A stretch of DNA of 64,000 nt from Chitinivibrionales bacterium (GTDB lineage Bacteria; Fibrobacterota; Chitinivibrionia; Chitinivibrionales; JANQEN01). A model generated the notes under the pieces. It was not told where the DNA came from and ran no database searches. It worked only from the letters and a program-made list of their open reading frames with translations. The stretch is taken from the NCBI GenBank assembly GCA_028278335.1, contig JANQEN010000188.1, forward strand, positions 62,001-126,000, written 5' to 3'. Shown piece after piece: positions 1,187 to 52,083 of the stretch (the stretch's first letter is position 1; each line of letters starts with the position of its first letter). The position numbers and the translations under genes are program-made.

Positions 1187-2572
1187 ATGAAGTTTAAAGG
1201 TGGGTTCAATGTTCGACTAAGAGGCGAACCATCTCACTCTATAAAACCCCTCCCCCAATGTAACACCTTAGAGCTTCCACTAACTTCAACACGATTTAAT
1301 TTCTCTATAGTTTTAGTAAAACCAGGTGAATTAGTCTTTCCTGGTGATAGAATCGCAATAGATTCGGACAACTTTTCATTACCCCTCTTGGCTCCCTGCA
1401 AAGGAACAGTAAATCTTGATTTAAAAGGCAAAATTATTGCACTTGAGTCGATCCAACAAATGGATAGTACGGCCATTGATATAAAAAAAGATATGCCCGA
1501 GCGGTATCAATCACAGGGTGTATTTGGAGAGACACGATATACCCTTGTTCGACTTGGTGCATGGCAATTACTGTTTGACACAAAAAATGGATCTGTTCCG
1601 GATCCTCTGGATAAACCTCAAACAATCATAGTCTCTCTTTTGTCTTTGGAACCCTTTTCTTTACATCCTGATGTTCTTCTTAAAGAGCGTTTATCAGAGT
1701 TTATTCATGGGCTTAAATGCCTCTATTCATTAATTGGGGATAAAAAAATTTATTTAATCCTGCCAAATATAAAATCAAAAAGTATAGACCAATGCTACAA
1801 TGATTTATACCGTAATAATTTAATTAGGCTTGTGAAGGTCCCTGCAAAATATCCTTACTCTGAACCGGAGTATGTAGCACAAGCTCTTCCCGAATTTGAT
1901 AATAGCCCTGGATCTGCGCCAATCTGGGCAACCTCTGTGGAGGGTGTCCTTGCCATAGACCAGGCATTGACCATTTCCCACCCCTATCTGCATCGTCATA
2001 TAGCCTTAGGTGGACCGGCATGTAAAAGCTCTGGATATGTCACTGCGGTCTGCGGGTATCCCATAAAAAAAATAAAGGAGAATATAGGAATACAAGGCAA
2101 AGTCCGTGTTGTTCAAGATGGGATTCTTAGAGGCAAAAAGGTAGATGAAAATCAGGTTGGTTTGGACACAGAGTGTCAGAGTTTAACCTTTATCGAAGAA
2201 AAGAGCAATCGAGACTTCCTTGGTTTTGCGCGCTTGGGCTTTACAAAACAATCCTTTAGCAACTCTTTTTTAAGTAAAATTGTTCCAAATTTCAAGGAAA
2301 AAGCCACTACTGGATTACAGGGTGAACATCGCCCCTGTGTTACCTGTGGTTTTTGTGAATCTATATGTCCCGCTGCACTGCTGCCCCATTTGCTATACCG
2401 GTATATTCAAAAACAGAGAGCAGAGGAGGCACAGCAATTGGGACTCTTTAAATGTATATCCTGTGGATTATGCTCCTATGTATGCCCCTCCAAGCTCGAC
2501 CTCTTTAAAACGATTGACCAAACAAAAAAAGAGTTGTCGACTGTAAACAAAAAAGAGGAGGCGGGATCATGA
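1187..2572 (+). CDS. nqrA: Na+-translocating NADH:quinone reductase subunit A, iron-sulfur variant
   Basis: Peripheral subunit of the sodium-pumping NQR complex. The N-terminus (GGFNVRLRGEPSHSI), the stretch FLGFARLGFTKQSFSN and the LPHLLYRYI segment are NqrA-like. The following genes are plainly nqrB-E rather than rnf, so NqrA is preferred over RnfC. The C-terminus differs from textbook NqrA: residues about 388-440 hold two complete ferredoxin-type motifs, CVTCGFCESICP and CISCGLCSYVCP, enough for two [4Fe-4S] clusters. The well-studied Vibrio protein has lost these cysteines while the homologous RnfC keeps them. The product may therefore carry electrons as RnfC does. The ATG follows a GGGGAAGCGGG stretch. 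The gene overlaps nqrB by four bases, so translation is probably coupled. Confidence 0.85.
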   Translation: MKFKGGFNVRLRGEPSHSIKPLPQCNTLELPLTSTRFNFSIVLVKPGELVFPGDRIAIDSDNFSLPLLAPCKGTVNLDLKGKIIALESIQQMDSTAIDIKKDMPERYQSQGVFGETRYTLVRLGAWQLLFDTKNGSVPDPLDKPQTIIVSLLSLEPFSLHPDVLLKERLSEFIHGLKCLYSLIGDKKIYLILPNIKSKSIDQCYNDLYRNNLIRLVKVPAKYPYSEPEYVAQALPEFDNSPGSAPIWATSVEGVLAIDQALTISHPYLHRHIALGGPACKSSGYVTAVCGYPIKKIKENIGIQGKVRVVQDGILRGKKVDENQVGLDTECQSLTFIEEKSNRDFLGFARLGFTKQSFSNSFLSKIVPNFKEKATTGLQGEHRPCVTCGFCESICPAALLPHLLYRYIQKQRAEEAQQLGLFKCISCGLCSYVCPSKLDLFKTIDQTKKELSTVNKKEEAGS

Positions 2573-3609
2573 AACCGCTTCTCTCTCTACTGGAGGCAGC
2601 ACGTCCTCTCTTTGTAAAGAGAGGAAAATTACATTTTTTCAAACCAGCCTTTGATGCTGCTGAGTTTGCCCTTTTCTATCCATCATCTCGTACAGAGTAT
2701 GCACCCCATGTGCGTGATGCCTTGGATATAAAACGATTCATGGGAACTGTAATTTTGGCCATGCTCCCCTCACTTATTGCGGCTATCTACTTCTTTGGCC
2801 CCCGCACTTTGGCAATGATCCTTGTCTCCTATGTTGTAGGCGGAACAGTTGAGGTGCTCTTTGCAGCAATTCGCAAAAGCGAGATTCATGAAGGCTTTCT
2901 AGTTACCGGCTTAATTTTTCCTCTAACCCTTCCTCCAGGTACACCCCTGTGGATCGTTGGCGTGGGTATCTTCTTCGGCACCATGTTTGGCAAAGAGGTA
3001 TTTGGTGGCACTGGAAAAAACATTTTTAATCCAGCCTTAGTCGGACGGATGTTTATCACCATTGCCTTTCCCGCCCCCATGACAACCTTATGGAAAATGC
3101 CCTTCTCCGATGCCATTACATCGGCCACCCCTATGTCACTCTTTAAAACGCAACAGATTATTACTCCCTATGTAGATCTTTTGTGGGGAAACACTGCTGG
3201 CAGTATAGGTGAAACATTTCATATTGGTATAATCGCTGGTGGGCTATTTTTAATGATGACGAAAATCAGTAATTGGCGGATACCTCTTTCATATTTGGGG
3301 ACCGTATTTATTATCTCTTATGTTGGAAACATGGCATTACCTGATACATACGCACCGCCACTGTTTCAAATTCTTTCTGGCGGGCTACTCTTTGGCGCAA
3401 TGTTTATGGCAACAGATCCTGTTACAGCACCAATGACAAAAATTGGAAAATATCTCTTTGGGATTTTTTGCGGTTTCCTTACTGTACTAATCAGAGCACT
3501 CTCAGGATATGTTGAGGGTGTTATGTTTAGTATCGTGATTATGAATGCCTTTACACCACTCCTTGATCATATAGTGCTTTCTGTAAAATATAGGCAGGTC
3601 AAGGCATGA
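2569..3609 (+). CDS. nqrB: Na+-NQR subunit B (flavin-carrying membrane subunit)
   Basis: Integral membrane subunit that carries covalent FMN and riboflavin and forms much of the Na+ path and quinone site in NQR. The 346-residue protein has the NqrB-type soluble N-terminus (EAARPLFVKRGKLHFFKP) followed by HVRDALDIKRFM, then about ten hydrophobic segments. The conserved loop GTGKNIFNPALVGRMF is present. The flavinylated threonine is likely in the TSATPMS segment, which takes the place of the canonical SGAT. That small change still keeps S-A-T. It overlaps both neighbours by four bases. The N-terminal extension favours NqrB over RnfD, which lacks it. Confidence 0.9.
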   Translation: MKPLLSLLEAARPLFVKRGKLHFFKPAFDAAEFALFYPSSRTEYAPHVRDALDIKRFMGTVILAMLPSLIAAIYFFGPRTLAMILVSYVVGGTVEVLFAAIRKSEIHEGFLVTGLIFPLTLPPGTPLWIVGVGIFFGTMFGKEVFGGTGKNIFNPALVGRMFITIAFPAPMTTLWKMPFSDAITSATPMSLFKTQQIITPYVDLLWGNTAGSIGETFHIGIIAGGLFLMMTKISNWRIPLSYLGTVFIISYVGNMALPDTYAPPLFQILSGGLLFGAMFMATDPVTAPMTKIGKYLFGIFCGFLTVLIRALSGYVEGVMFSIVIMNAFTPLLDHIVLSVKYRQVKA

Positions 3610-4187
3610 TTGATCGCTTTAAAATGATCCTCTTTGTACTGGTCTTGGGTACGATACTAACAACGGCACTTGTTGCAGTCAATGATGCCACAGCGCCTCG
3701 CATCGCCTATAATGAACAAATGAAATTGCACAAAAACATCCTTGTAGCTTTTAACATACCCTTTAAGGAAGAGGCTGTTGAGTCAACCTTTAAGAGAAGG
3801 ATAAAAACTAAAAAGGTAAAAGAGACTACCCTCTATATTACAAACCAAGGAGACTGTGCCTTTACCATAAAGGGAAAAGGTGTCTGGGGACCAATCTCTG
3901 GCGTCCTTGCGCTTCAATCAGATTTAATCACCATAAAAGGATTAAGTGTTCTCCACCAGGAAGAGACTCCCGGCTTAGGTGATCGTGTATTTGAACAGGC
4001 AAAGCTTAAAGAGTATGAAGGGAAAAAGTTTTCTCCCAAGCTTATCGTAACCGCACCAGGGAAAGCTCAAAAACAGAATGAGATTGATGGGATCACCGGA
4101 GCAACCTTAAGTTGTGTGGCCTTTGGCAACATTTTAAATGATGAATATGCGCGACATAAGCGACTACTCAGCGGAGGCAATCAATGA
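3606..4187 (+). CDS. nqrC: Na+-NQR subunit C (covalent FMN protein)
   Basis: Membrane-anchored periplasmic subunit that holds a covalently bound FMN. There is one N-terminal membrane helix (about residues 7-25), then an FMN-binding domain with the signatures GKGVWGPISGVLAL, EETPGLGDRV and the flavinylation site DGITGATLS, whose second threonine should carry FMN. At 193 residues it is shorter than the roughly 255-residue Vibrio protein and close to RnfG in size, yet the GVWGPISG stretch resembles NqrC. Flavin attachment needs an ApbE-type transferase, which is not in this window. It overlaps nqrB and nqrD by four bases each. Confidence 0.88.
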   Translation: MIDRFKMILFVLVLGTILTTALVAVNDATAPRIAYNEQMKLHKNILVAFNIPFKEEAVESTFKRRIKTKKVKETTLYITNQGDCAFTIKGKGVWGPISGVLALQSDLITIKGLSVLHQEETPGLGDRVFEQAKLKEYEGKKFSPKLIVTAPGKAQKQNEIDGITGATLSCVAFGNILNDEYARHKRLLSGGNQ

Positions 4188-4813
4188 TTGCAAAGAAGTT
4201 GTTTGGCACCAAGGGATATAAGGTCATTCGTAATGGCTTATGGTCTGACCATCCTATCTGCTCTGCTACGCTGGGTATATGTTCTGCCTTAGCAATAACT
4301 AATAAGGTAGAAAACGCTTTAGCCATGAGCGCTGGTGTTATTTTTGTCCTTCTTATTACTGGCTTTCTCATCTCCCTTCTAAGATCACTCATTCCCTCAC
4401 GGGTGCGTATTATTACTTATATGATCACCATTTCATCCTGTGTGATAATTGTTGACAAAGTGCTGAAAGCCTATTTTCCTGCTATCAGTGAAGCTATGGG
4501 GCCCTATGTGGGGTTGATTATAACCAATTGTATTATCATGGGAAGGGCTGAGGCATTCTTTGTGCAAAACAATACCTATCACTCACTTTTAGATGCCCTC
4601 TCCAATGGTATTGCCTACTCGTACACCCTCATTACCATGGCAATCATTCGAGAAATTCTGGCCTTTGGTACACTCTTGGGCATCCAGGTCATGCCAGCTG
4701 GCTGGGAGAATTGGGTGGTCATGGCATTAGCACCAGGTGCATTCTTTATCCTTGGTGTCTTTCTCTGGATCCTGAGAACCCTGGCTGATATTGACCCACC
4801 GGGGAAAGGATAG
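4184..4813 (+). CDS. nqrD: Na+-NQR subunit D
   Basis: Six-helix membrane subunit that together with NqrE holds the intramembrane iron centre of NQR. The two half-motifs with the metal-binding cysteines are intact: LGICSALAIT near the N-terminus and LIITNCIIMGRAEAF in the middle. The length (209 residues) is typical. NqrD and RnfE are homologous; the assignment to NQR rests on the flanking nqrA, nqrB, nqrC and nqrE and on the overall match to NqrD. The start overlaps the nqrC stop by four bases. Confidence 0.92.
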   Translation: MIAKKLFGTKGYKVIRNGLWSDHPICSATLGICSALAITNKVENALAMSAGVIFVLLITGFLISLLRSLIPSRVRIITYMITISSCVIIVDKVLKAYFPAISEAMGPYVGLIITNCIIMGRAEAFFVQNNTYHSLLDALSNGIAYSYTLITMAIIREILAFGTLLGIQVMPAGWENWVVMALAPGAFFILGVFLWILRTLADIDPPGKG

Positions 4814-4818
4814 TTGCA

Positions 4819-5406
4819 ATGCTTCGACTTATTACTATCTTTATAGCAGCAATCTTTACCCACAATGTAGCATTGGCGTACCTATTGGGAATGTGTCCCT
4901 TTGTGTCTCTGGCACGCAATCTCAAGACTTCCTTTGGAATGGGCTTAGCAGTGGTCTTTGTGGTCACCTTGACTGCTGCAATTAACTGGCCAATTTATCA
5001 TCTGGTTCTTGTTCCTCACAACTGTGAATTTCTTTCATTTATAGTTTTTATAATCGTTATTGCTTCCTCAGTTCAACTGGTGGAAATGATCATGGAGCGC
5101 TTTTTTCCTGCTTTGCAGGCTTCCTTTGGGATTTTTCTACCCCTTATTACCGTAAACTGTACCGTACTTGCAATCTCTCTTTTTATGGTGCTGAGGGAAT
5201 ACACCTTTATAACCACTCTCTTTTTTGCCGTTGGTTCTGCTGTTGGATTCTGGTTGGCCATTGTCCTTGTAGCAGCTATATACGAAAAGTTGGAGCTTGT
5301 TGGTAATGTTCCCCGGGGATTAAAAGGTCCGGGAATTATCATGATTATTACTGGAATCATTGCACTTGCCTTTATGGGCTTTGGTGGCATGGTGTCAATT
5401 AATTGA
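4819..5406 (+). CDS. nqrE: Na+-NQR subunit E
   Basis: Partner of NqrD, with inverted topology. It has six membrane helices and two cysteine-bearing half-motifs, YLLGMCPFVSLARNLKTSFG and FLPLITVNCTVLAISLF, which should supply the other two ligands of the NqrD/E iron centre. The 195-residue length is typical. The ATG lies five bases after the nqrD stop, and the GGGGAAAGGA stretch at the end of nqrD acts as its ribosome-binding site. With NqrB and NqrD it completes the ion-pumping membrane part, so the pump itself looks functional. Confidence 0.92.
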   Translation: MLRLITIFIAAIFTHNVALAYLLGMCPFVSLARNLKTSFGMGLAVVFVVTLTAAINWPIYHLVLVPHNCEFLSFIVFIIVIASSVQLVEMIMERFFPALQASFGIFLPLITVNCTVLAISLFMVLREYTFITTLFFAVGSAVGFWLAIVLVAAIYEKLELVGNVPRGLKGPGIIMIITGIIALAFMGFGGMVSIN

Positions 5407-5425
5407 TCGGTTTGGAAATAGACTA

Positions 5426-6385
5426 ATGCCTCTTGCACCTATTATTATTATGAACGCGATACTTCTTGCAATTACCATTATATTGGCAATTGCAGATCGC
5501 TTTTTAGTCTCCTATGGCTCCTGTAAAGTAACCCTTAAAAAAGAGGATGAGGAAAAGAAATTCACCCTTAAAGGTGGTGGCACACTTCTTTCTGCATTGA
5601 TTGATAATGGCGAATCTATTGCAGCCTCCTGCGGAGGACGGGGCAGTTGTGGGTTTTGCAAAGTACAGGTGTCTAAAGGTGGAGGGCAGATACTTCCAAC
5701 CGAAGAGCTTTTCATCAGTAAAGAGGAGCAAATTTTCGGTACTCGGTTGGCCTGTCAGGTAAAAATCAAAGAGGATATTGATCTCTTCATCCCTGACCTC
5801 CTTACCTCAGTTAAAAGTCTTGTTAAAAATGGTACCTTCGACACTAAGCTAAAGTGGCACTTTCTTCGCACTGACAGGAAAGAACAGGCAACCTCACCAT
5901 TGGCTAAATTAAAGATTGACAAAAAAGATCGTCTCAACCTTGAAGGTATTATTGATGATCACCGAGCAATGGAAGGTGCTCTTATGCCGCTTCTTCATGC
6001 CATAAACGAGCGGTATAACTATTTACCCGAAGAGGCGCTCCGAATTGTTGCAAAAGAGCTCTCTATACCACTGAGTAAAATCCTTAGTATTGCCACCTTC
6101 TACAATGCCTTTAGCTTAGAACCACGCGGAAAAAACATCATCTCGGTCTGTTTAGGAACAGCCTGTCACGTCAAGGGTGCCCAGGATATCCTGGAAACCT
6201 TTGAAGAACGCCTTGATATCAAAACCGGTGACACAACCAAGGACATGCTTTTTACTCTGGAAGCAGTGCGCTGCATTGGCTGTTGCGGGTTGGCCCCGGT
6301 AATTACTATTAACGAAGAAGTGCATGGCCTTATGACCAAGAATAAGGCCTTGAAACTCATTGACACTTTCCAAGGGAAATCCTAA
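5426..6385 (+). CDS. NqrF N-terminal (membrane helix + [2Fe-2S]) fused to NuoE/HndA-like domain
   Basis: Chimeric redox subunit at the position where nqrF is expected. Residues 1-30 form an NqrF-type membrane anchor. Residues about 45-125 are an NqrF-type ferredoxin domain with SCGGRGSCGFCKV and a late RLACQV, the four usual cysteines. The FAD- and NADH-binding half of NqrF is missing. In its place, residues about 175-315 are a NuoE/HndA thioredoxin-like [2Fe-2S] domain with CLGTACHVKGA and AVRCIGCCGLAPV. Electrons could pass from a NuoF-like partner to this domain and on to the NqrF cluster. I chose the ATG at 5426 because an earlier in-frame ATG would run deep into nqrE and add no conserved residue. 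The stop overlaps the next start in TAATG. Confidence 0.9.
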   Translation: MPLAPIIIMNAILLAITIILAIADRFLVSYGSCKVTLKKEDEEKKFTLKGGGTLLSALIDNGESIAASCGGRGSCGFCKVQVSKGGGQILPTEELFISKEEQIFGTRLACQVKIKEDIDLFIPDLLTSVKSLVKNGTFDTKLKWHFLRTDRKEQATSPLAKLKIDKKDRLNLEGIIDDHRAMEGALMPLLHAINERYNYLPEEALRIVAKELSIPLSKILSIATFYNAFSLEPRGKNIISVCLGTACHVKGAQDILETFEERLDIKTGDTTKDMLFTLEAVRCIGCCGLAPVITINEEVHGLMTKNKALKLIDTFQGKS

Positions 6386-6768
6386 TGGCAGCTCTATCAA
6401 TAAAAGATCTTACTGCTATTGCCAAAAAGACAAAGGAGAGCATGCAAATCTCTGCACAGGGGCCCCATACGAAAATAACCGTGCATATGGGTACCTGTGG
6501 TATTGCTGCAGGAGCTCAAAAGGTAATGGATAGCTTTAAGGAAGTGTTAGAAATAGTTGACAAAAAGGATGTAATCCTTACCTATTCTGGCTGTGCAGGA
6601 CTTTGCAGCAACGAGCCAATGGTTACTATTGAGCGCTATGGAGAAAAACCGATAAAGTATATCAATATCACTCCTAAGATAGCTCGAGAAATAATGAAAC
6701 AGCATGTTCAAAAGGGAAATCCCTTAAAGGAATACATTATCGCTAAAGGCTATGAAAATATTGTCTGA
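6385..6768 (+). CDS. HndB-like [2Fe-2S] thioredoxin-fold protein
   Basis: Small iron-sulfur protein (127 residues) of the type found as HndB in NADP-reducing [FeFe]-hydrogenases, and as the N-terminal extension of many NuoF-like subunits. Two motifs are visible: MGTCGIAAGAQKV and YSGCAGLCSNEPMVTIE. Only three cysteines are obvious, as is usual for this subgroup. It lies between the NuoE-type fusion and the NuoF-type gene, the same order as hndA-hndB-hndC. Its likely role is an extra electron relay on the NAD(P)H module. The start overlaps the previous stop by one base. Confidence 0.85.
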   Translation: MAALSIKDLTAIAKKTKESMQISAQGPHTKITVHMGTCGIAAGAQKVMDSFKEVLEIVDKKDVILTYSGCAGLCSNEPMVTIERYGEKPIKYINITPKIAREIMKQHVQKGNPLKEYIIAKGYENIV

Positions 6769-6789
6769 TTATTAATGGGTGATTCTACT

Positions 6790-8316
6790 ATGAGTAAAGA
6801 GACAAAGAAAAAAGAAAAGACCCAAACTATTCCTGACTTAAATAGTGTTCCCTTTTTTGGGCGGCAAATCCTTATTGCCCTCCGTAACCGCGGTCGAATT
6901 AATCCTGAAAGTATTGACGAATACATTGCCCATGATGGCTACCAGGCATTGGCAAAGGGCCTCACAAAACTTAAGCCAACTGATATTGTTGAGCAGATAA
7001 AGCAATCCAGCCTTCGTGGCCGGGGTGGTGGTGGCTTTGACACTGGCAGGAAATGGGCCTCTGCTGCAAAGGCGACTGGTGAACCTAAGTATGTCATTTG
7101 CAATGCTGATGAAGGTGACCCTGGGGCCTACATGGATCGAAGCATAATCGAAGCGGACCCACACTCAGTCATAGAGGGGATGGCGCTCTGTGGCCGGGCA
7201 ATTGGTTCGACCGTCGGCTATGTTTATATTCGTGCAGAATACCCCTTAGCACGAAAGATATTAGGGCATGCTTTGGAACAGGCTCGGGCGTATGGCCTCT
7301 TGGGAGAAAACATCTTAGACTCTGATTTCTCCTTTGACATTTTCATTAAACAAGGTGCTGGAGCATTTGTCTGTGGCGAGTCCAGCGCCCTTCGCGCTTC
7401 TATTGAAGGCAATGTGGGTGAGCCTACCCCAAAATATGACCACGCCACAGAAAAGGGACTTTGGAAAAAACCAACGGTCCTTAACAATGTAGAGAGTTTT
7501 GCCAATGTGCCACCGATCATCCTCAAAGGAGCCCAGTGGTTTTCTGCTATGGGAACTGAACATAGTAAGGGAACCAAGGTATTCTCTCTGGTAGGCAAAA
7601 TTGTCAACACAGGACTCATTGAAGTGCTCATGGGAACGACCCTACGGGACATCATCTTTGAAATTGGTGGTGGTATTCCCGATGGTAAAGCCTTTAAAGC
7701 AGTACAGACCGGCGGACCCTCTGGCGGTTGTATCCCCGAATCGCTGTTAGATATGTCAGTTGACTTTGAGGAACTCTCTAAGGCCGGCTCTATGATGGGT
7801 TCAGGCGGTATGATTGTCATGGATGAAGACACCTGTATGGTTAATGTAGCCAAATACTTCATTGAATTTTGCAATAGTGAATCCTGCGGCAAATGTATCT
7901 CCTGCCGTGATGGCTCAGAGGCAATGTTAGAGATTCTAACGCGAATTTCCGAGGGTAAAGGCAAAGAGGAGGACATCACCTTACTCGAAGAGCTAAGCAA
8001 TGCTATAAAAGAGGCTTCTCTTTGTGGATTAGGCACCTCTCTTCCCAATCCAGTGCTTAGCACGCTTCGCTATTTTAAAGAGGAGTATCAAGAACATATC
8101 GTACACAAGCGGTGTCCGGCTGGGGTGTGTAAGGCGTTGATCACCTTCACTGTGCTTGAAAAAAACTGTACTAAATGCGGAGTCTGTTTTAAGAACTGTC
8201 CCTATGAAGCGATCACCTGGAAGAAAAAAGAGATTGCTGTTATAAATCAGAACCAGTGTAAAAAATGTGGTATCTGCTATGAGGTATGCAAATTCAAGGC
8301 GATTGAGAGAAAGTAA
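6790..8316 (+). CDS. NuoF/HndC-like flavin NAD(P)H-oxidising subunit with C-terminal ferredoxin domain
   Basis: Diaphorase subunit of the complex I/hydrogenase family. It takes electrons from NAD(P)H through FMN. Motifs, in order: FMN/NADH-binding RGRGGGGFDTGRKW, CNADEGDPGAYMDR and GAGAFVCGESSALRASIEG, then the N3-type cluster motif SESCGKCISCRDG. The last 60 residues form a two-[4Fe-4S] ferredoxin domain (CTKCGVCFKNCP and CKKCGICYEVC), typical of the HndC/HydB group rather than respiratory NuoF. I prefer the ATG at 6790, seven bases after GGGTGA; an in-frame ATG at 6775 would add five residues. HydB-type subunits are known from electron-bifurcating enzymes; whether this one bifurcates is inference. 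Confidence 0.9.
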   Translation: MSKETKKKEKTQTIPDLNSVPFFGRQILIALRNRGRINPESIDEYIAHDGYQALAKGLTKLKPTDIVEQIKQSSLRGRGGGGFDTGRKWASAAKATGEPKYVICNADEGDPGAYMDRSIIEADPHSVIEGMALCGRAIGSTVGYVYIRAEYPLARKILGHALEQARAYGLLGENILDSDFSFDIFIKQGAGAFVCGESSALRASIEGNVGEPTPKYDHATEKGLWKKPTVLNNVESFANVPPIILKGAQWFSAMGTEHSKGTKVFSLVGKIVNTGLIEVLMGTTLRDIIFEIGGGIPDGKAFKAVQTGGPSGGCIPESLLDMSVDFEELSKAGSMMGSGGMIVMDEDTCMVNVAKYFIEFCNSESCGKCISCRDGSEAMLEILTRISEGKGKEEDITLLEELSNAIKEASLCGLGTSLPNPVLSTLRYFKEEYQEHIVHKRCPAGVCKALITFTVLEKNCTKCGVCFKNCPYEAITWKKKEIAVINQNQCKKCGICYEVCKFKAIERK

Positions 8317-8325
8317 GGACCTATC

Positions 8326-8886
8326 GTGATTACTTTTACTATAAACGACAAAGAATTCACCGTAGATGAGGGCACCACTGTTTTAGAAGTGGCACAGGAT
8401 GCAAACATTCCTATTCCTACCCTTTGCTTTCACAAGGAGCTTTCACCCTATGGATCATGCAGACTCTGCCTGGTAGAGATCCATCGTCGTGGTCGTGTTG
8501 CCTTGGAGCCGGCCTGCCTCTATCGAGCAGAAGAGGGTATTGCAGTAAAAACCGACACAAAACGGGTACAGAAAACCAGAAAGGTTCTCTTTGAACTCTT
8601 TTTAGCACGCTGTAAAGATTCTGAAGCGCTAAATTCATTAGCAGCTGAATATGGTGTCACCAGCACTCGCTTTTCACTGAGTGAAAAGGATGAATGTATT
8701 CTCTGCGGACTCTGTGTCCGGGCTTGTGCAGAGATATCACAACGTCACGCTATCAATTTCTACTCCCGTGGCAGCAACCGCGAAATCAGAACTCCCTACA
8801 ACAAAATCTCTGAAACCTGCATTGGGTGTGGTGCCTGTGCCCACGTCTGTCCTATGAAGATTCTCAAGATAGAAGAAGCAGATTAG
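8326..8886 (+). CDS. NuoG/HndD N-terminal-like ferredoxin subunit without hydrogenase domain
   Basis: Soluble iron-sulfur protein of 186 residues. It matches only the electron-transfer head of HndD/HydA or NuoG. Residues 1-75 are a [2Fe-2S] ferredoxin domain (LCF, GSCRLCLVE, PAC). The His-Cys [4Fe-4S] site that usually follows is missing: only LARCKDSEAL remains. Residues about 125-180 hold two [4Fe-4S] motifs (CILCGLCVRACAE and CIGCGACAHVCP). The protein ends there, so it has no H-cluster or molybdopterin domain. It probably bridges the NuoF-like subunit and the NQR iron-sulfur sites, or docks free ferredoxin. The GTG start follows AAGGAC at good spacing, nine bases after the previous gene. 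It is the last gene of the operon. Confidence 0.85.
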   Translation: MITFTINDKEFTVDEGTTVLEVAQDANIPIPTLCFHKELSPYGSCRLCLVEIHRRGRVALEPACLYRAEEGIAVKTDTKRVQKTRKVLFELFLARCKDSEALNSLAAEYGVTSTRFSLSEKDECILCGLCVRACAEISQRHAINFYSRGSNREIRTPYNKISETCIGCGACAHVCPMKILKIEEAD

Positions 8887-9971: not shown

Positions 9972-10664
9972 ATGAATTATTCTTCCGAAGTTGAAGAAAT
10001 GGTATGCGTGGCCAAAGGACCGAATAATGGTCCCTCACCCATCCCTGCCGAAGGCAAATGGGTCCAGGCAAAGGAAGTTAAGGACATCTCCGGGCTAACC
10101 CATGGTGTGGGTTGGTGCGCTCCACAGCAGGGTGCCTGCAAGTTAACTTTGAACATTAAAGACGGCATCATTGAGGAAGCCTTGGTAGAAACCGTTGGTT
10201 GTACTGGCATGACCCACTCTGCAGCAATGGCCTCTGAAATTCTTCCAGGCAAAACAATTCTCGAAGCGATGAATACCGACCTTGTATGCGATGCGATTAA
10301 TGTTGCCATGCGGGAACTCTTTTTGCAGATCGTCTATGGGCGTTCACAAACCGCCTTTTCCGAGGGTGGACTCCCCATTGGTGCTGGCTTAGAAGATCTT
10401 GGTAAGGGACTCATGAGTGTAACCGGAACTACCTATGGCACCAGTGCCAAAGGTCCTCGTTATTTAGAGGTTGCCGAGGGATATGTAAATGAGCTTGCCT
10501 TAGATGATAATGATGAGATCATTGGATACAAATTCGTTAAGCTTGGTGTGATGATGGAATTGATCAACAAGGGAACCGATGCAAATGAAGCATTGGAAAA
10601 AGCAACTGGAACCTATGGCCGTTTTGCCGATGCTGTTAAAACCATTAACCCCCGGCACGAATAA
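9972..10664 (+). CDS. IscU/NifU-like iron-sulfur scaffold-type protein, partner of GGGtGRT protein
   Basis: A 230-residue protein whose middle resembles the IscU/NifU scaffold fold: GWCAPQQGACKLTLNIKDG and ALVETVGCTGMTHSAAMASE, followed by GKTILEAMN. Two cysteines sit where scaffold ligands are expected, and the third canonical cysteine region is altered. The N-terminal 40 residues and the glycine-rich C-terminal half are not in classical IscU. Proteins of this kind are annotated as iron-sulfur cluster assembly scaffolds in many anaerobes and are regularly followed by a GGGtGRT gene, as here, 12 bases downstream. The biochemical role of the pair is not known to me. The ribosome-binding site is AAAGGA. 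Confidence 0.8.
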   Translation: MNYSSEVEEMVCVAKGPNNGPSPIPAEGKWVQAKEVKDISGLTHGVGWCAPQQGACKLTLNIKDGIIEEALVETVGCTGMTHSAAMASEILPGKTILEAMNTDLVCDAINVAMRELFLQIVYGRSQTAFSEGGLPIGAGLEDLGKGLMSVTGTTYGTSAKGPRYLEVAEGYVNELALDDNDEIIGYKFVKLGVMMELINKGTDANEALEKATGTYGRFADAVKTINPRHE

Positions 10665-10676
10665 GGAGGATTAATC

Positions 10677-11678
10677 ATGGCTCTTTTTGAAAGTTATGAA
10701 AGAAGAATAGATCAAATAAATGCCTTTCTTAAGGAAAATGGCATTGCCTCTATTGAGGAAGCTGAAGCTCTTTGTAAGGAAAAGGGATTGGATATTTACG
10801 AATTGGTAAAAGAGATTCAACCAATCTGTTTTGAGAATGCCTGCTGGTCCTATGTTGTTGGTGCTGCGGTTGCTATTAAGCGTGGACAAACGGTCGCCGC
10901 TGAAGTTGCGGTCACTCTGGGTGAAGGATTACAATCCTTCTGTATTCCTGGTTCAGTTGCAGACGATCGTAAAGTGGGTATTGGTCATGGAAACCTAGCC
11001 TCCATGCTTCTTAAAGAAGAAACCAAATGTTTTGCCTTTTTAGCTGGCCACGAATCTTTTGCTGCTGCAGAAGGGGCAATCGGTCTTGCTCGTTCTGCAA
11101 ACAAGGCACGTAAAGACCCTCTTAGAGTTATCTTAAATGGTCTTGGCAAAGATGCTGCTCAGATCATCTCTCGTATTAATGGGTTTACTCATGTACAAAC
11201 CAAGTTTGACTATGCAACTGGTGAGCTAACTGTTGTTAAAAAGACTCCCTATTCAAAGGGTGAGCGGGCAAAGGTAAATTGTTATGGTGCCGATGATGTT
11301 CGTGAAGGTGTTGCAATAAACCATCACGAAGGTGTGGATGTGTCGATTACTGGAAATTCTACCAACCCAACTCGCTTCCAGCACCCTGTGGCTGGTACCT
11401 ATAAAAAAGAGTGCCTCCTTCAGGGAAAGAACTACTTCTCTGTAGCATCCGGTGGTGGAACTGGCCGAACCTTGCATCCTGATAATATGGCTGCTGGCCC
11501 CGCGTCTTATGGCATGACCGACACATTGGGTCGCATGCACTCCGATGCTCAATTTGCAGGATCATCCTCAGTGCCTGCCCACGTTGAAATGATGGGTCTT
11601 ATTGGCATGGGCAATAACCCTATGGTTGGCGCCTCAGTAGCGGTTGCAGTTGCAGTTGAGCAGGCAATGGCTAAATAA
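10677..11678 (+). CDS. GGGtGRT family protein
   Basis: A 333-residue protein of the family named for its motif, present here as SGGGTGRTLHPDNMAAG at about residues 260-275. Other strongly conserved-looking stretches are GIGHGNLASML, FLAGHESFAAAEGAIGLA and GMGNNPMVGASVAVAVAVEQ. It has no signal peptide or membrane segment, so it is cytoplasmic. It is co-transcribed with the upstream scaffold-like gene (AAGGAGG ribosome-binding site) and is followed by a strong hairpin terminator. No enzymatic function is established; the pairing suggests a redox or metal-cofactor role. Confidence 0.88.
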   Translation: MALFESYERRIDQINAFLKENGIASIEEAEALCKEKGLDIYELVKEIQPICFENACWSYVVGAAVAIKRGQTVAAEVAVTLGEGLQSFCIPGSVADDRKVGIGHGNLASMLLKEETKCFAFLAGHESFAAAEGAIGLARSANKARKDPLRVILNGLGKDAAQIISRINGFTHVQTKFDYATGELTVVKKTPYSKGERAKVNCYGADDVREGVAINHHEGVDVSITGNSTNPTRFQHPVAGTYKKECLLQGKNYFSVASGGGTGRTLHPDNMAAGPASYGMTDTLGRMHSDAQFAGSSSVPAHVEMMGLIGMGNNPMVGASVAVAVAVEQAMAK

Positions 11679-46881: not shown

Positions 46882-49254
46882 ATGGTTAAGAAATGTTTAG
46901 TCCTACTCATCATTCCTGTATTGCTTTTTGCAACGGAATTGACACAAACCTATACCTTTACACAACCGAAAATTGATGGTGATCAGCTGACCATGGAAGG
47001 GTGTCAACCTTCCTACGATGCCTTTGCACCTCGTTTGGCTATTAAACCGGTGAGCCTTTTGCTCCCAGCCGGTCAAGTGGCAGTCTCCTTTGATGTTGCC
47101 TATGGTGAACCGGTAAAACTTAAAAACTCACAATACATTGCACCATTCTTGCCCGGTGGTATTATCAGCAAGCCACCACCAGCAGACTATTACACAAAGA
47201 CAGCTGGCGTTTACAGTGTTGACGCATTTTTGCCTGCAGAGATAAAATCACCGAAGTTTTTCACCCAATATCGCTATGGCCACTCAATATTTTCAGCGAA
47301 TCTTCGTCCTGTTCAATACAATGCTGTTACTGGCGAAGTTCAATTTTACCAAAGTATTACTGTAAAAGTAACCACGGCAAAAGCAAAAAATAGCCAGATG
47401 CCTTTTAGATTCTCACCATTTATTAAAAGCCAATTGGCATTAGAGGTTGATAACCCTGAAGCATTAGAGGGTATTCCTTACACTATCAGAGATGCAGATG
47501 ACTATGATTATGCGATTATCACAACCAATGCGCTGAAAAATTCCTGGGATTCCTTTGTTGCCTTCAATAAAAGAAGAGGATTAAAATCTAAAATACATGC
47601 AATTGAAGAAATTAATAGCTCAAGCTCTGGATCTAAACCAGAGGACAAGCTTAAAAATTTTCTTATTAAACAATACAAAGATCACAAAATTACTTATGTA
47701 ATGCTTGGTGGTGATGACAATTTTGGCACCAACAGAAAACCCTTATCAACAGCTATCACTCATAAAGGCTATTCTGCTGCATTTAAGGATTATGGAACCG
47801 ATCCCATATCTGATAAAGATATTGCCGCAGACATGTTTTATGAAACATTGGATGGTCAGGAGCTTAAGGACCTTGAATGGGAACTCTATGCAGCGCGTTT
47901 TCCCGCAGATAATGCAACTGAGCTTAAACGGATGATCGACAAAACCATAGCCTACTCAGAAAAGCCTGTTAATTCAGCCCTTAAGAAATCGGTTCTTGCC
48001 GGTGAAAAATTATGGGCCAATATCCATGGTGGTACCTGCTATGGTATTGATTGTATGAAACTCCTTAAGGGAAAAAGTACAAAGTATTACGAAACAAACT
48101 GTTTTGACAATAGCTGGTCTCACACAGAACTTAAAGAACGCAGCTCCAGTTGGACAAAAAATAGACTTATTGGCCTCATGAATGACGGAATCCATATTGT
48201 AAACCATCTGGGACACTCCAATAATTTTATGATCATGAAAATGTACAAGCAGTACAATGATGTGCAAAAGCTCACCAATACTGCCTATTGGATCGGTTTT
48301 ACAGAAGGATGCTATTGTGGTTGTTGGGATAATAGAAAAATCTCCTTTAATGCAAGTATAAATACTGGCCATTACAATCATTCCTCACAAGATTGTATTG
48401 CCGAAGAATTTACTGTAGGAACAAGTAAAGGTGCGGTGGCCTTTGTAAGTAACACCCGTTTTGGCCTTGGCGACAATGGAAGAGCAAGTCGTGAGGGTAC
48501 TGATGGATCAAGTATTCGCATTCAGCGCTTCTTTTGGGATGGTCTTTTTGACAAAAAAATGCATCACATTGCTGTAATGCTGGCTTACTCAAAGTGGATC
48601 AACAAAACACCAATTCTTAATACCAATGTTAATGCTGAGCCCTACTTTGGTCAGCTAACTTACTGCGCTTATCAAGTAAACTGTCTTGGTGATCCAGCGC
48701 TCTCTGTTTGGACCTCGACTCCAAAGACCTTTACTGAGCTGCCTGCTTATTCTATAAAGAATAAGGTTTTTGAGATGGACACCAAAAATCCTTACACTTG
48801 GGTCGCTCTTCTTGATAAGGACGATAAAATTATCGCATCACAGCAGAGTGGCACTGATGGTAAAATTAAAATTGAAGATTTACCACTAGTTGATTATCTC
48901 ACCAAAAACCCACGGGCTGACCTAAAAGTTAATATTAAAGCACATAACTACAAGCCTTTTAGTGGTGATGTCACTGCAATTGCCCTTAACAGGATAAGTG
49001 CTTTGCAAAACCTTTCAGTTGTTTCAGCTCACAACAAGGTTAAAATCAATTATAGTATTCCTCAAGCCTCACGAGTATCAATTTCCCTCTTCAATGCTAA
49101 GGGAAGTGAGCTTAAATCAGTGGTTAAGGGATTACAGAGTGGTGGGACCTATTCATTACAGGTTAAAACTGATGATCTCAGTAGCGGAATCTATTATGTA
49201 CGTGCTGCTATAAATAATGCACAGGTCACTGAAAAAATTATGGTTACTAAATAG
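46882..49254 (+). CDS. Gingipain-like C25 cysteine peptidase, paralogue 1
   Basis: Secreted cysteine peptidase of family C25, 790 residues. Layout: signal peptide (MVKKCLVLLIIPVLLFA), a propeptide-like region (about 20-200) ending SPFIKSQLALEVDNPEAL, and the catalytic domain (about 205-620). The catalytic histidine is likely in VNHLGHSNNFMIMK and the cysteine in GFTEGCYCGCWDN. Further conserved text is VMLGGDDNFG and AFVSNTRFGLGDNGRAS. The last 80 residues form a Por/T9SS-type sorting domain (ISLFNAKGSELKSVV, GIYYVRAAI, KIMVTK), so it should be exported to the surface. GGGAGG precedes the ATG. It is the first of three tandem copies; true gingipains cleave after Arg or Lys, but specificity here is unknown. 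Confidence 0.85.
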   Translation: MVKKCLVLLIIPVLLFATELTQTYTFTQPKIDGDQLTMEGCQPSYDAFAPRLAIKPVSLLLPAGQVAVSFDVAYGEPVKLKNSQYIAPFLPGGIISKPPPADYYTKTAGVYSVDAFLPAEIKSPKFFTQYRYGHSIFSANLRPVQYNAVTGEVQFYQSITVKVTTAKAKNSQMPFRFSPFIKSQLALEVDNPEALEGIPYTIRDADDYDYAIITTNALKNSWDSFVAFNKRRGLKSKIHAIEEINSSSSGSKPEDKLKNFLIKQYKDHKITYVMLGGDDNFGTNRKPLSTAITHKGYSAAFKDYGTDPISDKDIAADMFYETLDGQELKDLEWELYAARFPADNATELKRMIDKTIAYSEKPVNSALKKSVLAGEKLWANIHGGTCYGIDCMKLLKGKSTKYYETNCFDNSWSHTELKERSSSWTKNRLIGLMNDGIHIVNHLGHSNNFMIMKMYKQYNDVQKLTNTAYWIGFTEGCYCGCWDNRKISFNASINTGHYNHSSQDCIAEEFTVGTSKGAVAFVSNTRFGLGDNGRASREGTDGSSIRIQRFFWDGLFDKKMHHIAVMLAYSKWINKTPILNTNVNAEPYFGQLTYCAYQVNCLGDPALSVWTSTPKTFTELPAYSIKNKVFEMDTKNPYTWVALLDKDDKIIASQQSGTDGKIKIEDLPLVDYLTKNPRADLKVNIKAHNYKPFSGDVTAIALNRISALQNLSVVSAHNKVKINYSIPQASRVSISLFNAKGSELKSVVKGLQSGGTYSLQVKTDDLSSGIYYVRAAINNAQVTEKIMVTK

Positions 49255-49298
49255 GTTTAGAATAACCTATTTTACATAATATAGGACGGAAGTCTGGG

Positions 49299-49325
49299 GG
49301 GCAAAGTAAATTCCTTACTTTGCCC
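49299..49325 (+). terminator. Terminator after C25 peptidase 1
   Basis: An 11-bp stem GGGCAAAGTAA/TTACTTTGCCC with a five-base loop, followed by TTTATTTTTTTT. Textbook Rho-independent form, 44 bases after the stop. Confidence 0.92.
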
Positions 49326-49445
49326 TTTATTTTTTTTAACACTTTTTTATGCAATGGTATACATTATACATGCACTTATAATGCGCTGAAAAATCCAGGG
49401 TAGGAAAGACGATTTAAACTAAATTCATTACAAGTAGGAGGCTTT

Positions 49446-51818
49446 ATGTTAAAAAAAGCACTTGTGTTGCTCATCATCCCAACACTTTTATTTGCTGCAA
49501 AAATTTCACAAACCTATAATCTTCCCTTGCCGGAAGTGAGAAATCAAGCGATCTATTTAGAGGGCTGCCAAACTGCGGTTGTTCCCTTTGCTCCCAAAAT
49601 TCCCTCGAAGAGTGTTTCCCTAAAACTTCCCTATGGTGAAGTGGCAGTCTCCTATGATGTTATTTGTGAGGAACCGGTGGAGTTTAAGAACGCCGGGTAT
49701 ATCGCACCCTTTCGTCCTGGAGGAAGAAGATCTGCACAACCACCAAAGAATTATTACACTCGTACCTCATCTATTTATAGCGAAAATGCGTTTTACCCAG
49801 CAGAGGTAAAATCACCTAAATACGTAACTCAATATAGGTATGGGCACTCAATTTTAACAGCCAGTTTTCGTCCGGTTCAGTACAACCCGGTTACGGGCCA
49901 GATGAGAAGTTATCGTAAAGTAACAGTTGTTGTTGAGACCGAGAAAATGAAGGAAGAAAAGCCGGTTTTAAAATTTTCTCCTTTCATTAAAAGTCAGTTA
50001 GCATTAGAAATTGACAATCCCGAATCTTTAGAGGGTATTGCCTATACCCCTATAGACAAGGATGACTATGATTATGCTCTGATTACAACCAACAAGCTTA
50101 AAAATGCCTGGAATGATTTTATTGCCTTTAATAAACGTCGTGGCCTAAAAACAAAGCTCAAGACTGTTGAAGACATCAATGCCTCTATTTCCAGTGGCAG
50201 TCAAGCTGAAAAACTTAAAAAGTATTTAAAAGATGAATACGAAAAGAATAATATCACCTTTGTCATGCTCGGTGGTGACGATAACTTTGGCCCAGACAGA
50301 AAACCGCTCGCCGATGCTGTAACTCATAAAAGTTACTCTGCAGCCTTCAAAGATTATGGGACAGACCCTATCTCCGACAAAGATGTTGCCGCTGATATGT
50401 ACTACGAAACATTGGATGGGGATGAATTGGATGATTTGGAATGGGAAATCTACGCTGCCCGTTTTCCTGCTGATAATACAACCGAGCTTAATCGCATGAT
50501 TAATAAAACGATCAAATACTCGGAGCAACCAGTAACCAGTGCCATTAAAAAGGTCATTTTAGCCGGTGAAAAGGCTTGGCCCAATATCAATGGTGGCACC
50601 TGTTGGGGTAAGGACGAAATGCTTTTGCTAAAAGGAACCTGCACTCGCTGGTATACCACCAAAGGATTTGATAATTCTTTTAGCTTTACTGAACTTTATG
50701 AAGTAGACCAGAACTGGTCAAAAAATCAGTTAATTAGCGCCATAAACAGTGGAGTAAACTTTCTTAATCATGTTGGCCATTCCAACAATTTCATGATCAT
50801 GAAGTTATATAAACAATATAATGACCCACAAAAGTTAAACAATAACGCCTTTTATATTGGGTATACAACTGGCTGTTATTGTGGATGTTGGGATAATAGA
50901 AAGATCGCTTATAATGCCAGTATTAATACTGGTCACTACAATCATAGCACACAGGATTGTATTGCAGAAGAGTTTACCGTCGGTATTGACAAGGGTGCGG
51001 TTGCCTTTATCAGCAATACCCGTTTCGGCCTTGGTGATAACGGTCGGGCAAGTCAGGATGGAACAGATGGATCAAGTATCCGTTGCGAGCGCTATCTCTA
51101 TGATGGCTTCTTTAATAAGAAGATGCACCATCTTGCTGTGGCACAAGCTTATTCGAAATGGATAAATAAAACTGCCATTCTCAACACCGATGTGAATGCA
51201 AAACCCTATTATGGCCAGATGGAGTATGTCGCCTATCAAATTAATGTTCTTGGTGATCCGGCACTTTCGGTTTGGACAGAAACACCAAAGACCTTGAGTG
51301 GTGATCATCCAAAAACCATTGATGCTAATGCAACCAAATTTTCTTGGGACACTAAAAATCCTTATACAGCTGTTGCGCTTCTTGATAAGGATGATAATGT
51401 TGTTTGCTCCCAGATCACCGGTGAGGATGGAAAATTAGAGATGAGCGGTCCCGCTTTAACTGAATATCTTCCTTCTCATGCTGGAGAGAAGTTGAAGATC
51501 AATGTTAAAGCATGGAATCATAAACCCTATCAGGGTGAAGTTGCAATATCTGCTACAAACATTGTTAATGCCAATACTCATAGTTTTAATAACCTTGTGA
51601 CTATCAATGGTATTACAAAGATGGTGCAGATATCTCTTCCCACAAAGGATCAGGCTACCCTATCACTGTACAATTCAAAGGGTATCCTTATTCAATCCCA
51701 GAAGATTACTTCCCAAAAGACTCAAGTATCACTCCAAGCGATAAGTAATGGAGTATACTATCTAAGATTGCAATCTAAACATTTCCAGGTTGGTGAAAAG
51801 CTGGTTCTTTCACGGTAA
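49446..51818 (+). CDS. Gingipain-like C25 cysteine peptidase, paralogue 2
   Basis: Second copy, also 790 residues and readily alignable with the first over its whole length. It has a signal peptide (MLKKALVLLIIPTLLFAA), the propeptide with RFS-to-KFSPFIKSQLALEIDNPE, the catalytic histidine in LNHVGHSNNFMIMK and the cysteine in GYTTGCYCGCWDN. The substrate-pocket region between about residues 390 and 440 (GGTCWGKDEMLLLKG onward) differs clearly from copy 1, which suggests divergent substrate choice. The C-terminal sorting domain ends VYYLRLQ...KLVLSR. AGGAGG precedes the ATG. It has its own terminator and is separated from copy 1 by a terminator, so it is transcribed independently. Confidence 0.85.
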   Translation: MLKKALVLLIIPTLLFAAKISQTYNLPLPEVRNQAIYLEGCQTAVVPFAPKIPSKSVSLKLPYGEVAVSYDVICEEPVEFKNAGYIAPFRPGGRRSAQPPKNYYTRTSSIYSENAFYPAEVKSPKYVTQYRYGHSILTASFRPVQYNPVTGQMRSYRKVTVVVETEKMKEEKPVLKFSPFIKSQLALEIDNPESLEGIAYTPIDKDDYDYALITTNKLKNAWNDFIAFNKRRGLKTKLKTVEDINASISSGSQAEKLKKYLKDEYEKNNITFVMLGGDDNFGPDRKPLADAVTHKSYSAAFKDYGTDPISDKDVAADMYYETLDGDELDDLEWEIYAARFPADNTTELNRMINKTIKYSEQPVTSAIKKVILAGEKAWPNINGGTCWGKDEMLLLKGTCTRWYTTKGFDNSFSFTELYEVDQNWSKNQLISAINSGVNFLNHVGHSNNFMIMKLYKQYNDPQKLNNNAFYIGYTTGCYCGCWDNRKIAYNASINTGHYNHSTQDCIAEEFTVGIDKGAVAFISNTRFGLGDNGRASQDGTDGSSIRCERYLYDGFFNKKMHHLAVAQAYSKWINKTAILNTDVNAKPYYGQMEYVAYQINVLGDPALSVWTETPKTLSGDHPKTIDANATKFSWDTKNPYTAVALLDKDDNVVCSQITGEDGKLEMSGPALTEYLPSHAGEKLKINVKAWNHKPYQGEVAISATNIVNANTHSFNNLVTINGITKMVQISLPTKDQATLSLYNSKGILIQSQKITSQKTQVSLQAISNGVYYLRLQSKHFQVGEKLVLSR

Positions 51819-51843
51819 CAACCTATTCGATAAGTATTTAAAT

Positions 51844-51870
51844 GGCAAAGAGATAAATGATCTCTTTGCC
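51844..51870 (+). terminator. Terminator after C25 peptidase 2
   Basis: An 11-bp stem GGCAAAGAGAT/ATCTCTTTGCC with a five-base loop, then TTTTTTTA. It lies 25 bases after the stop. Confidence 0.92.
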
Positions 51871-52083
51871 TTTTTTTATGTTTTTTACGAAAAGTAGCAA
51901 TATATAAGTATTATTTATACTATATATAAATTATTATTGAATTATTGAACCACTATTCCTACTTTTTTGTATATTTATAAATAGTGGTATCTATTACAAT
52001 TCATGAAGCTTATTGTGCTTCAAACAACAATGGTAATAACTATAAGACTCTTTTTCACCATCTTTAATCAATTGGGGGGAATC

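Follow-up and report, generated by a model that had tools for sequence, protein, structure and literature searches.

A single open frame at positions 5426-6385 of the window (the whole 64,000-nucleotide stretch of Chitinivibrionales DNA analysed here) joins part of the Na+-NQR subunit NqrF to a domain of the NuoE type. This raises the question of whether the two halves of the surrounding operon encode one machine, and which machine that would be. The frame belongs to a run of nine same-strand (+) genes at 1187-8886, which overlap or lie at most 20 bp apart. Their order is A, B, C, D, E (RNF/NQR type), the fusion, an HndB-like [2Fe-2S] protein, BfuB and BfuA; promoter and terminator scans returned no more sites than chance. 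The features are as follows.

1187-2572, + strand: A-subunit, NqrA/RnfC-like (NqrA NF003761, 197 bits, the best NCBIfam match; rnfC, 132 bits; Pfam NQRA_2nd and Fer4)
2569-3609, + strand: B-subunit, NqrB/RnfD-like, with a Gly-Gly quinone-site motif at residues 91-92 (PF03116, 352 bits)
3606-4187, + strand: C-subunit, NqrC/RnfG-like, FMN-binding (PF04205, 59.8 bits; flavinylation motif DGITGATLS)
4184-4813, + strand: D-subunit, NqrD/RnfE-like (PF02508, 179 bits)
4819-5406, + strand: E-subunit, NqrE/RnfA-like (PF02508, 172 bits; C26 and C114; NqrE tree)
5426-5840, + strand: NqrF membrane helix and [2Fe-2S] ferredoxin domain, FAD/NADH domain absent (TIGR01941, PF00111, AlphaFold2 model)
5837-5902, + strand: predicted disordered linker, residues 138-159 (pLDDT below 50)
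5921-6385, + strand: BfuC (NuoE/HydC/HndA-like) [2Fe-2S] domain (PF01257, solved-chain and fold matches)
6385-6768, + strand: HndB-like thioredoxin-fold [2Fe-2S] protein, counterpart of the BfuB N-terminal domain (matches the N-termini of the bifurcating BfuB-type chains 8oh5_B, 9n5u_B and 9bov_B)
6775-8316, + strand: BfuB (HydB/HndC/NuoF-like) FMN/NADH subunit with ligands for clusters B1, B2-type, B3 and B4 (PF01512, PF10589, Fer4 pair)
8326-8886, + strand: BfuA (HoxU/HydA N-terminus-like), with one [2Fe-2S] and two [4Fe-4S] motifs and without an H-cluster or His-ligated cluster region

The fusion gene has 319 codons (319 aa), and a frame of this length has a chance of about 1e-9 at the GC content of the window. 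In the Pfam search, residues 40-115 matched Fer2 (PF00111, 42 bits) and residues 173-315 matched 2Fe-2S_thioredx (PF01257, 165 bits) over nearly the whole length of the model. The NCBIfam nqrF model TIGR01941 matched residues 6-131 (104 bits), only over model positions 5-129 of 405, and the fusion therefore lacks the FAD/NADH part of NqrF. Both cysteine sets are complete, namely C69-x5-C75-x2-C78...C110 for the NqrF cluster and C242-x4-C247...C283-x3-C287 for the NuoE cluster. In the AlphaFold2 model (mean pLDDT 83.9), a helix at residues 4-27 and two folded domains are predicted together with one disordered stretch, the linker at residues 138-159. The original prediction that one frame holds an NqrF helix, its four-cysteine [2Fe-2S] motif and the four cysteines of a NuoE/HndA domain is thus confirmed, and the profiles for the NqrF N-terminus and the 24-kDa/NuoE subunit both match, as had been expected.

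The same fusion, which the original prediction proposed to look for in related genomes, is present in another genus of the same family (genome G001), with 64% identity over residues 1-318 and no stop. Across the junction (residues 125-175, 49 codons), the window and G001 differ at 15, 8 and 29 first, second and third codon positions, respectively, with 18 synonymous codon changes, and this substitution pattern is that of a translated sequence. Since the fusion recurs in G001 and the junction differences fall mostly at third codon positions, a sequencing error at 5800-5960 is excluded; although the source is a draft genome of 301 contigs, a frameshift or misassembly that joined two unrelated genes, which would have refuted the prediction, is ruled out on the same grounds.

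The original description of the second domain as NuoE-like is correct for the fold, but a complex I partner does not stand, because the best relatives are bifurcating Bfu enzymes. By sequence comparison, the closest solved chains of the BfuC domain are HydC, NiFe-HydC and NfnC, and Foldseek matched the second domain to the BfuC-type chain 9mqx_C (tungsten aldehyde oxidoreductase), 7p5h_C, HydC of Thermotoga, NfnC and StnA. BfuB aligns at 680 bits with A. woodii HydB and at 665 bits with A. mobile NiFe-HydB; solved bifurcating HydB-type chains span 572-680 bits, whereas complex I chains reach at most 363. BfuA finds its best solved match in 9mqx_A, a subunit of the bifurcating tungsten aldehyde oxidoreductase, for which (PDB 9MQX) no paper was found in the open-access literature. 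The NuoF-like subunit has ligands for an extra [4Fe-4S] cluster and for a pentacoordinate cluster, which are absent from complex I; this assigns the second half of the operon to the electron-bifurcating Bfu (HydABC) family, of which it encodes the core, without a hydrogenase domain. Identity with complex I NuoE is ruled out by the much closer match of BfuB and BfuA to bifurcating enzymes than to complex I. In addition, neither a NuoG C-terminal part nor membrane Nuo subunits were found in the operon: BfuA (186 aa) ends after its ferredoxin part, and the membrane genes are of the Nqr/Rnf type.

According to the part of Schut et al. (PMC9304861) that was available, the Bfu core is defined by clusters B1-B5 and C1. 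Residues C354, H441, C447 and C452 of the window BfuB correspond to the B2 ligand positions C438, H525, C531 and C536 (A. mobile numbering), and Ala and Met are kept at A202 and M204 in the same numbering. Four of the five B2 ligands (Cys, Cys/Thr, His, Cys, Cys) are thus met, and at the fifth, position 476, the window has Ser where G168, G223 and G237 have Thr; the accessible portion of the same source gives Thr at this position in about two thirds of the Bfu family. The B3/B4 motifs are present in the window BfuB, and B3/B4 with the His ligand are kept in four members. As a separate observation, the window BfuB (6775-6860) begins without the N-terminal thioredoxin-like domain that is kept in G001, G168, G223 and G237, all of which also have a separate HndB-like gene.

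In the pump half, the A-subunit carries two C-terminal [4Fe-4S] motifs (C384-C394 and C423-C433), and the eight cysteines are kept in all five members that have an A-subunit gene. Among 58 NqrA-like proteins scanned, only two contain both motifs, one from a member of the present group (hereafter Nqr-Bfu) and one from L005. The latter is a Spirochaetales NQR locus (2946-8394) with a full-length NqrF and yet an A-subunit with two [4Fe-4S] motifs, another mixture of RNF and NQR. The RnfC FMN/NAD region is unrecognisable in the A-subunits of the window, G001 and G168, and weak in those of G169 and G237, where Complex1_51K is above cut-off. No rnfB was found in the operon, and the RnfB of the same genome sits elsewhere (contig C148). 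The Gly-Gly motif of the B-subunit aligns with G140/G141 of Vibrio cholerae NqrB and is kept in five of five members. The RNF of the same genome has CV at these positions, and other NQR loci have GG in 14 cases, GA or GL in 46 and something else in three. In the consulted part of Reyes-Prieto et al. (PMC4014512), glycines 140/141 form the NqrB quinone site and RnfD is without them. Residues C26 and C116 of the D-subunit lie near the ligand positions of the membrane [2Fe-2S] cluster, an inferred assignment.

The two modules occur together in six genomes from two phyla, namely the window genome (G000), G001, G168, G169, G223 and G237. In the phylum of the window, the operon was found in two of 168 genomes, both of one family and both with the fusion. 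That this phylum is Fibrobacterota is a probable inference from the Fibro_Slime family, which was present in each of six genomes tested for it and in none of 14 controls; the assembly gave no 16S rRNA match. A truncated-NqrF profile, on which these proteins score 228-280 bits versus at most 133 for ordinary NqrF, picked out three genomes (G168, G223 and G237) among 393 of the phylum of G168, and G169 was reached separately; the wider scan was pattern-based and not exhaustive. In these four Spirochaetota-type genomes, the truncated NqrF is a free gene (149-152 aa), which shares an operon with Bfu genes in G168, G223 and G237; in G169 it neighbours a BfuC gene. BfuC is a separate gene directly after truncated NqrF in G169, G223 and G237, while the operon of G168 has HndB, BfuB and BfuA with no BfuC gene adjoining. 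The contig of G001 breaks off within BfuB and that of G223 within BfuA, and that of G169 stops after BfuC and accessory genes without reaching a BfuB. None of the six members retains the FAD/NADH domain of NqrF. Therefore, the claim that the two operon halves make one machine, for which the fusion had been offered as the best evidence, is supported beyond the fusion by co-location in six genomes, by adjacent split genes in three and by loss of the NqrF NADH domain throughout.

Some accessory genes accompany the split operons. DRTGG and CBS genes follow BfuC in G169 and G237, with ATPase-type genes also in G237, where the interval between BfuC and HndB (L178, 9705-12493) holds DRTGG, CBS-ATPase, DRTGG, PHP-like and ATPase genes. 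We take these genes of the G237 operon to be of the regulatory kind seen in hydrogenase operons.

In an NqrE tree of 50 rows, RNF (7 rows, support 100/98), Nqr-Bfu (6 rows, 100/99) and NQR (37 rows, 98/85) formed three separate clades. Nqr-Bfu and NQR stand together against RNF, with Nqr-Bfu as sister to the sampled NQRs and not inside their clade, which makes the pump half, on this tree, a third lineage within the RNF/NQR superfamily. The NqrF-domain tree also recovered one Nqr-Bfu clade (99). Both are short single-gene trees, and the rooting relies on RNF as outgroup. Meanwhile, the two fused domains pair in the BfuC tree (98/99), and in the BfuB tree the window falls near, not inside, the clade of G168, G223 and G237. 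The tie between the fused domains and the split BfuC genes is unresolved, and common inheritance of the two forms could not be proved. Besides this operon, the host genome encodes a true RNF and an ordinary NqrBCDEF cluster, which fall in other clades. This second NQR-type cluster (L134, contig C139, 2347-6392, minus strand) has no adjoining nqrA, and its NqrB has AF in place of Gly-Gly; two clostridial loci (L004 and L006) look like it.

The entry point of NADH in NQR is the FAD of NqrF, and a mobile [2Fe-2S] domain passes electrons to the NqrD/E membrane cluster (PMC12174285). Since NqrF is truncated in every member, the Nqr-Bfu pump has no NADH site unless a neighbouring dehydrogenase supplies one. 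The Bfu core as a new input is the simplest reading, given that all six members are without the NADH domain and that the ferredoxin domain is joined to BfuC or, in three genomes, lies beside it as a separate gene. Because Bfu cores use both NAD(H) and ferredoxin, such a complex would draw on both and reduce quinone. We propose, with a probability of about 0.58 and in the absence of protein data, that the operon at 1187-8886 encodes one membrane complex, Nqr-Bfu, in which electrons from NADH and reduced ferredoxin would reach a quinone-reducing NQR-type ion pump via a tethered [2Fe-2S] domain. The architecture is well supported, whereas the reaction, its direction, the electron route and the ion, like assembly into one complex and electron bifurcation itself, are inferred.

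In the proposed complex, the Bfu core (BfuB with the HndB-like protein, the BfuC domain and BfuA) would bind NAD(H) and ferredoxin and stand in for the FAD/NADH domain of NqrF, with BfuC held covalently, as the fused gene predicts, to the NqrF membrane anchor and [2Fe-2S] domain. The flexibly linked [2Fe-2S] domain may then carry electrons from the Bfu core to the membrane [2Fe-2S] cluster of NqrD/E, from which they would pass through the NqrC and NqrB flavins to quinone, with outward pumping of an ion that is most likely Na+. The net direction would most likely be confurcation, in which NADH and reduced ferredoxin together reduce quinone, and this would yield more energy per electron pair than NADH alone. 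Against the model count the Ser at one B2 position in the window, the lack of a BfuC gene adjoining the G168 operon, the unresolved tie of the fused to the split BfuC in the BfuC tree and the failure to find a de novo menaquinone route.

Quinone use by Nqr-Bfu is likely but has not been shown. In G168 and G237 the operon is followed by a gene for a polyprenyl-diphosphate synthase, MenA-like prenyltransferases occur in five of the six genomes (three over cut-off), and an SdhCDAB-like operon of the host, which was identified by reading and not by family search, includes two small membrane subunits. As to the de novo menaquinone route, MqnA was absent from the six genomes and MenD was seen only below cut-off; hence uptake of quinone or a different biosynthetic route would be required. 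The presence of MenA-like genes without MqnA or an over-cut-off MenD gives the impression that a naphthoate precursor is taken up or comes from an unknown pathway.

The main fact that the quinone-reducing model leaves unexplained is the presence of the A-subunit [4Fe-4S] clusters, which a plain quinone-reducing NQR does not need. They favour a closed, RNF-like circuit with the Bfu core at both ends of the pump, in which electrons would run from reduced ferredoxin through BfuC-NqrF and the pump to the A-subunit clusters and return by BfuA to NAD+ at the BfuB FMN, without quinone. Both cluster sites are kept in each of the five A-subunits found, with only one non-member among the scanned NqrA-like proteins sharing them. 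The RnfC FMN/NAD motif is absent from the window and only weak in G169 and G237, so that the clusters must have a different partner. BfuA belongs to Type 2, in which electrons arrive from additional subunits, and the failure to find de novo quinone genes points the same way. However, the B-subunit has the quinone Gly-Gly that RnfD lacks, prenyl-chain and MenA-like genes lie near the operon in relatives, and the host already owns a genuine RNF. We consider this circuit unlikely, though it remains a live alternative.

Also improbable, in our view, is a plain NADH:quinone ion pump, that is, an NQR with a swapped input domain in which the Bfu core would serve only as an NADH dehydrogenase without using ferredoxin. 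NqrF is normally fed by NADH alone, the window BfuB carries Ser at a B2 position otherwise occupied by Cys or Thr, and the HndB-like domain forms a protein of its own. However, the ferredoxin-side clusters B3/B4 and the His ligand retained in the four members are missing from non-bifurcating homologues, as stated in the sections of PMC9304861 that could be consulted.

It is quite improbable that the operon encodes two neighbouring enzymes, with the fusion merely anchoring a soluble Bfu oxidoreductase at the membrane and the pump driven otherwise. Other Bfu enzymes do work as separate soluble complexes, and four of the six genomes carry [FeFe]-hydrogenases able to use a Bfu core. However, the pump would be left without an NADH or ferredoxin site of its own, with NqrF cut short in all members and RnfB absent from the operon, and the split genomes still keep NqrF beside BfuC or in the same operon. 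Moreover, no [FeFe]-hydrogenase over cut-off was found in G223 or G237, and the Bfu core is therefore not simply waiting for a hydrogenase; a role as diaphorase for a HydA encoded elsewhere is disfavoured for the same reason.

Nqr-Bfu was not classed as NQR or RNF because the defining features of both were tested and not met. Like Na+-NQR (NqrA-F, Vibrio type), it has homologues of NqrB, C, D and E, the NqrF-type helix and [2Fe-2S] domain and the B-subunit Gly-Gly. In contrast to Na+-NQR, its NqrF has a Bfu core in place of the FAD/NADH domain, its A-subunit keeps two [4Fe-4S] sites whereas NqrA has no redox cofactors, and it forms a separate clade in the NqrE tree. With RNF (RnfABCDGE) it shares a homologous membrane core and a [4Fe-4S]-bearing C/A subunit, but it lacks RnfB, its RnfC FMN/NAD motif is lost or weak, its Gly-Gly is absent from RnfD, and the RNF of the same genome falls in another clade. 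Bfu Type 2 enzymes, such as the tungsten aldehyde oxidoreductase 9MQX, are similar in the BfuB ligands for B1, B3, B4 and, but for the Ser in the window, B2, in BfuC, in a separate or N-terminal [2Fe-2S] B5 domain and in a BfuA without a His cluster or catalytic domain; unlike them, Nqr-Bfu has an RNF/NQR ion pump as extra subunits and a BfuC fused to a membrane ferredoxin domain. The nearest proposal is Nuo-Bfu (complex I-like, predicted in Geobacter and others), in which a Bfu core would likewise feed a quinone-reducing ion pump by the same confurcation logic. Its pump is, however, of the proton-pumping complex I type and not of the NQR/RNF type, and the part of the literature seen reports no fusion of BfuC to a pump subunit for it.

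As far as PMC9304861 was available, it lists Mbh-Bfu and Nuo-Bfu as membrane types, does not mention Nqr, and has Rnf in one reference title only. No description of an Nqr-Bfu hybrid was found in the open-access literature, and the words 'fusion' and 'hybrid' are absent from a 2025 review of RNF and NQR (PMC12174285). Nqr-Bfu joins two known families and looks like an undescribed kind of respiratory complex. If the proposal is true, NADH and ferredoxin would together drive a respiratory ion pump by way of a bifurcating core, and two energy-conserving inventions, so far studied separately, would be connected in it. The fusion and its split relatives offer a defined target for purification and cryo-EM.

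The lineage also bears on the origin of NQR from RNF. In the published scheme, as far as the accessible text of PMC4014512 goes, RnfB was lost, RnfC decayed into NqrA and an NADH module was recruited in separate steps, and the feature combination of the Nqr-Bfu clade is not described there. It is possible, and we suggest it only tentatively, that Nqr-Bfu is a third, early RNF/NQR branch that preserves an intermediate of this transition, in which RnfB would have been replaced by the NqrF-type anchor and ferredoxin domain, the Gly-Gly and the RnfC clusters would both be present, and the NADH site would come from a bifurcating core rather than from an FNR domain.

Other genes near the operon and in the rest of the window may be recorded here. 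A taurine/nitrate-type ABC transporter ATPase is encoded just upstream of the operon (10-681), and in G168 a similar transporter set adjoins a MenA-like gene (L207, 4526-7238). Directly downstream of the operon, at 9972-11678, are two adjacent conserved-looking ORFs (230 and 333 aa) without an NCBIfam match. Further along, at 46882-54444, three consecutive ORFs of 790-813 aa have similar starts and appear to form a tandem family.
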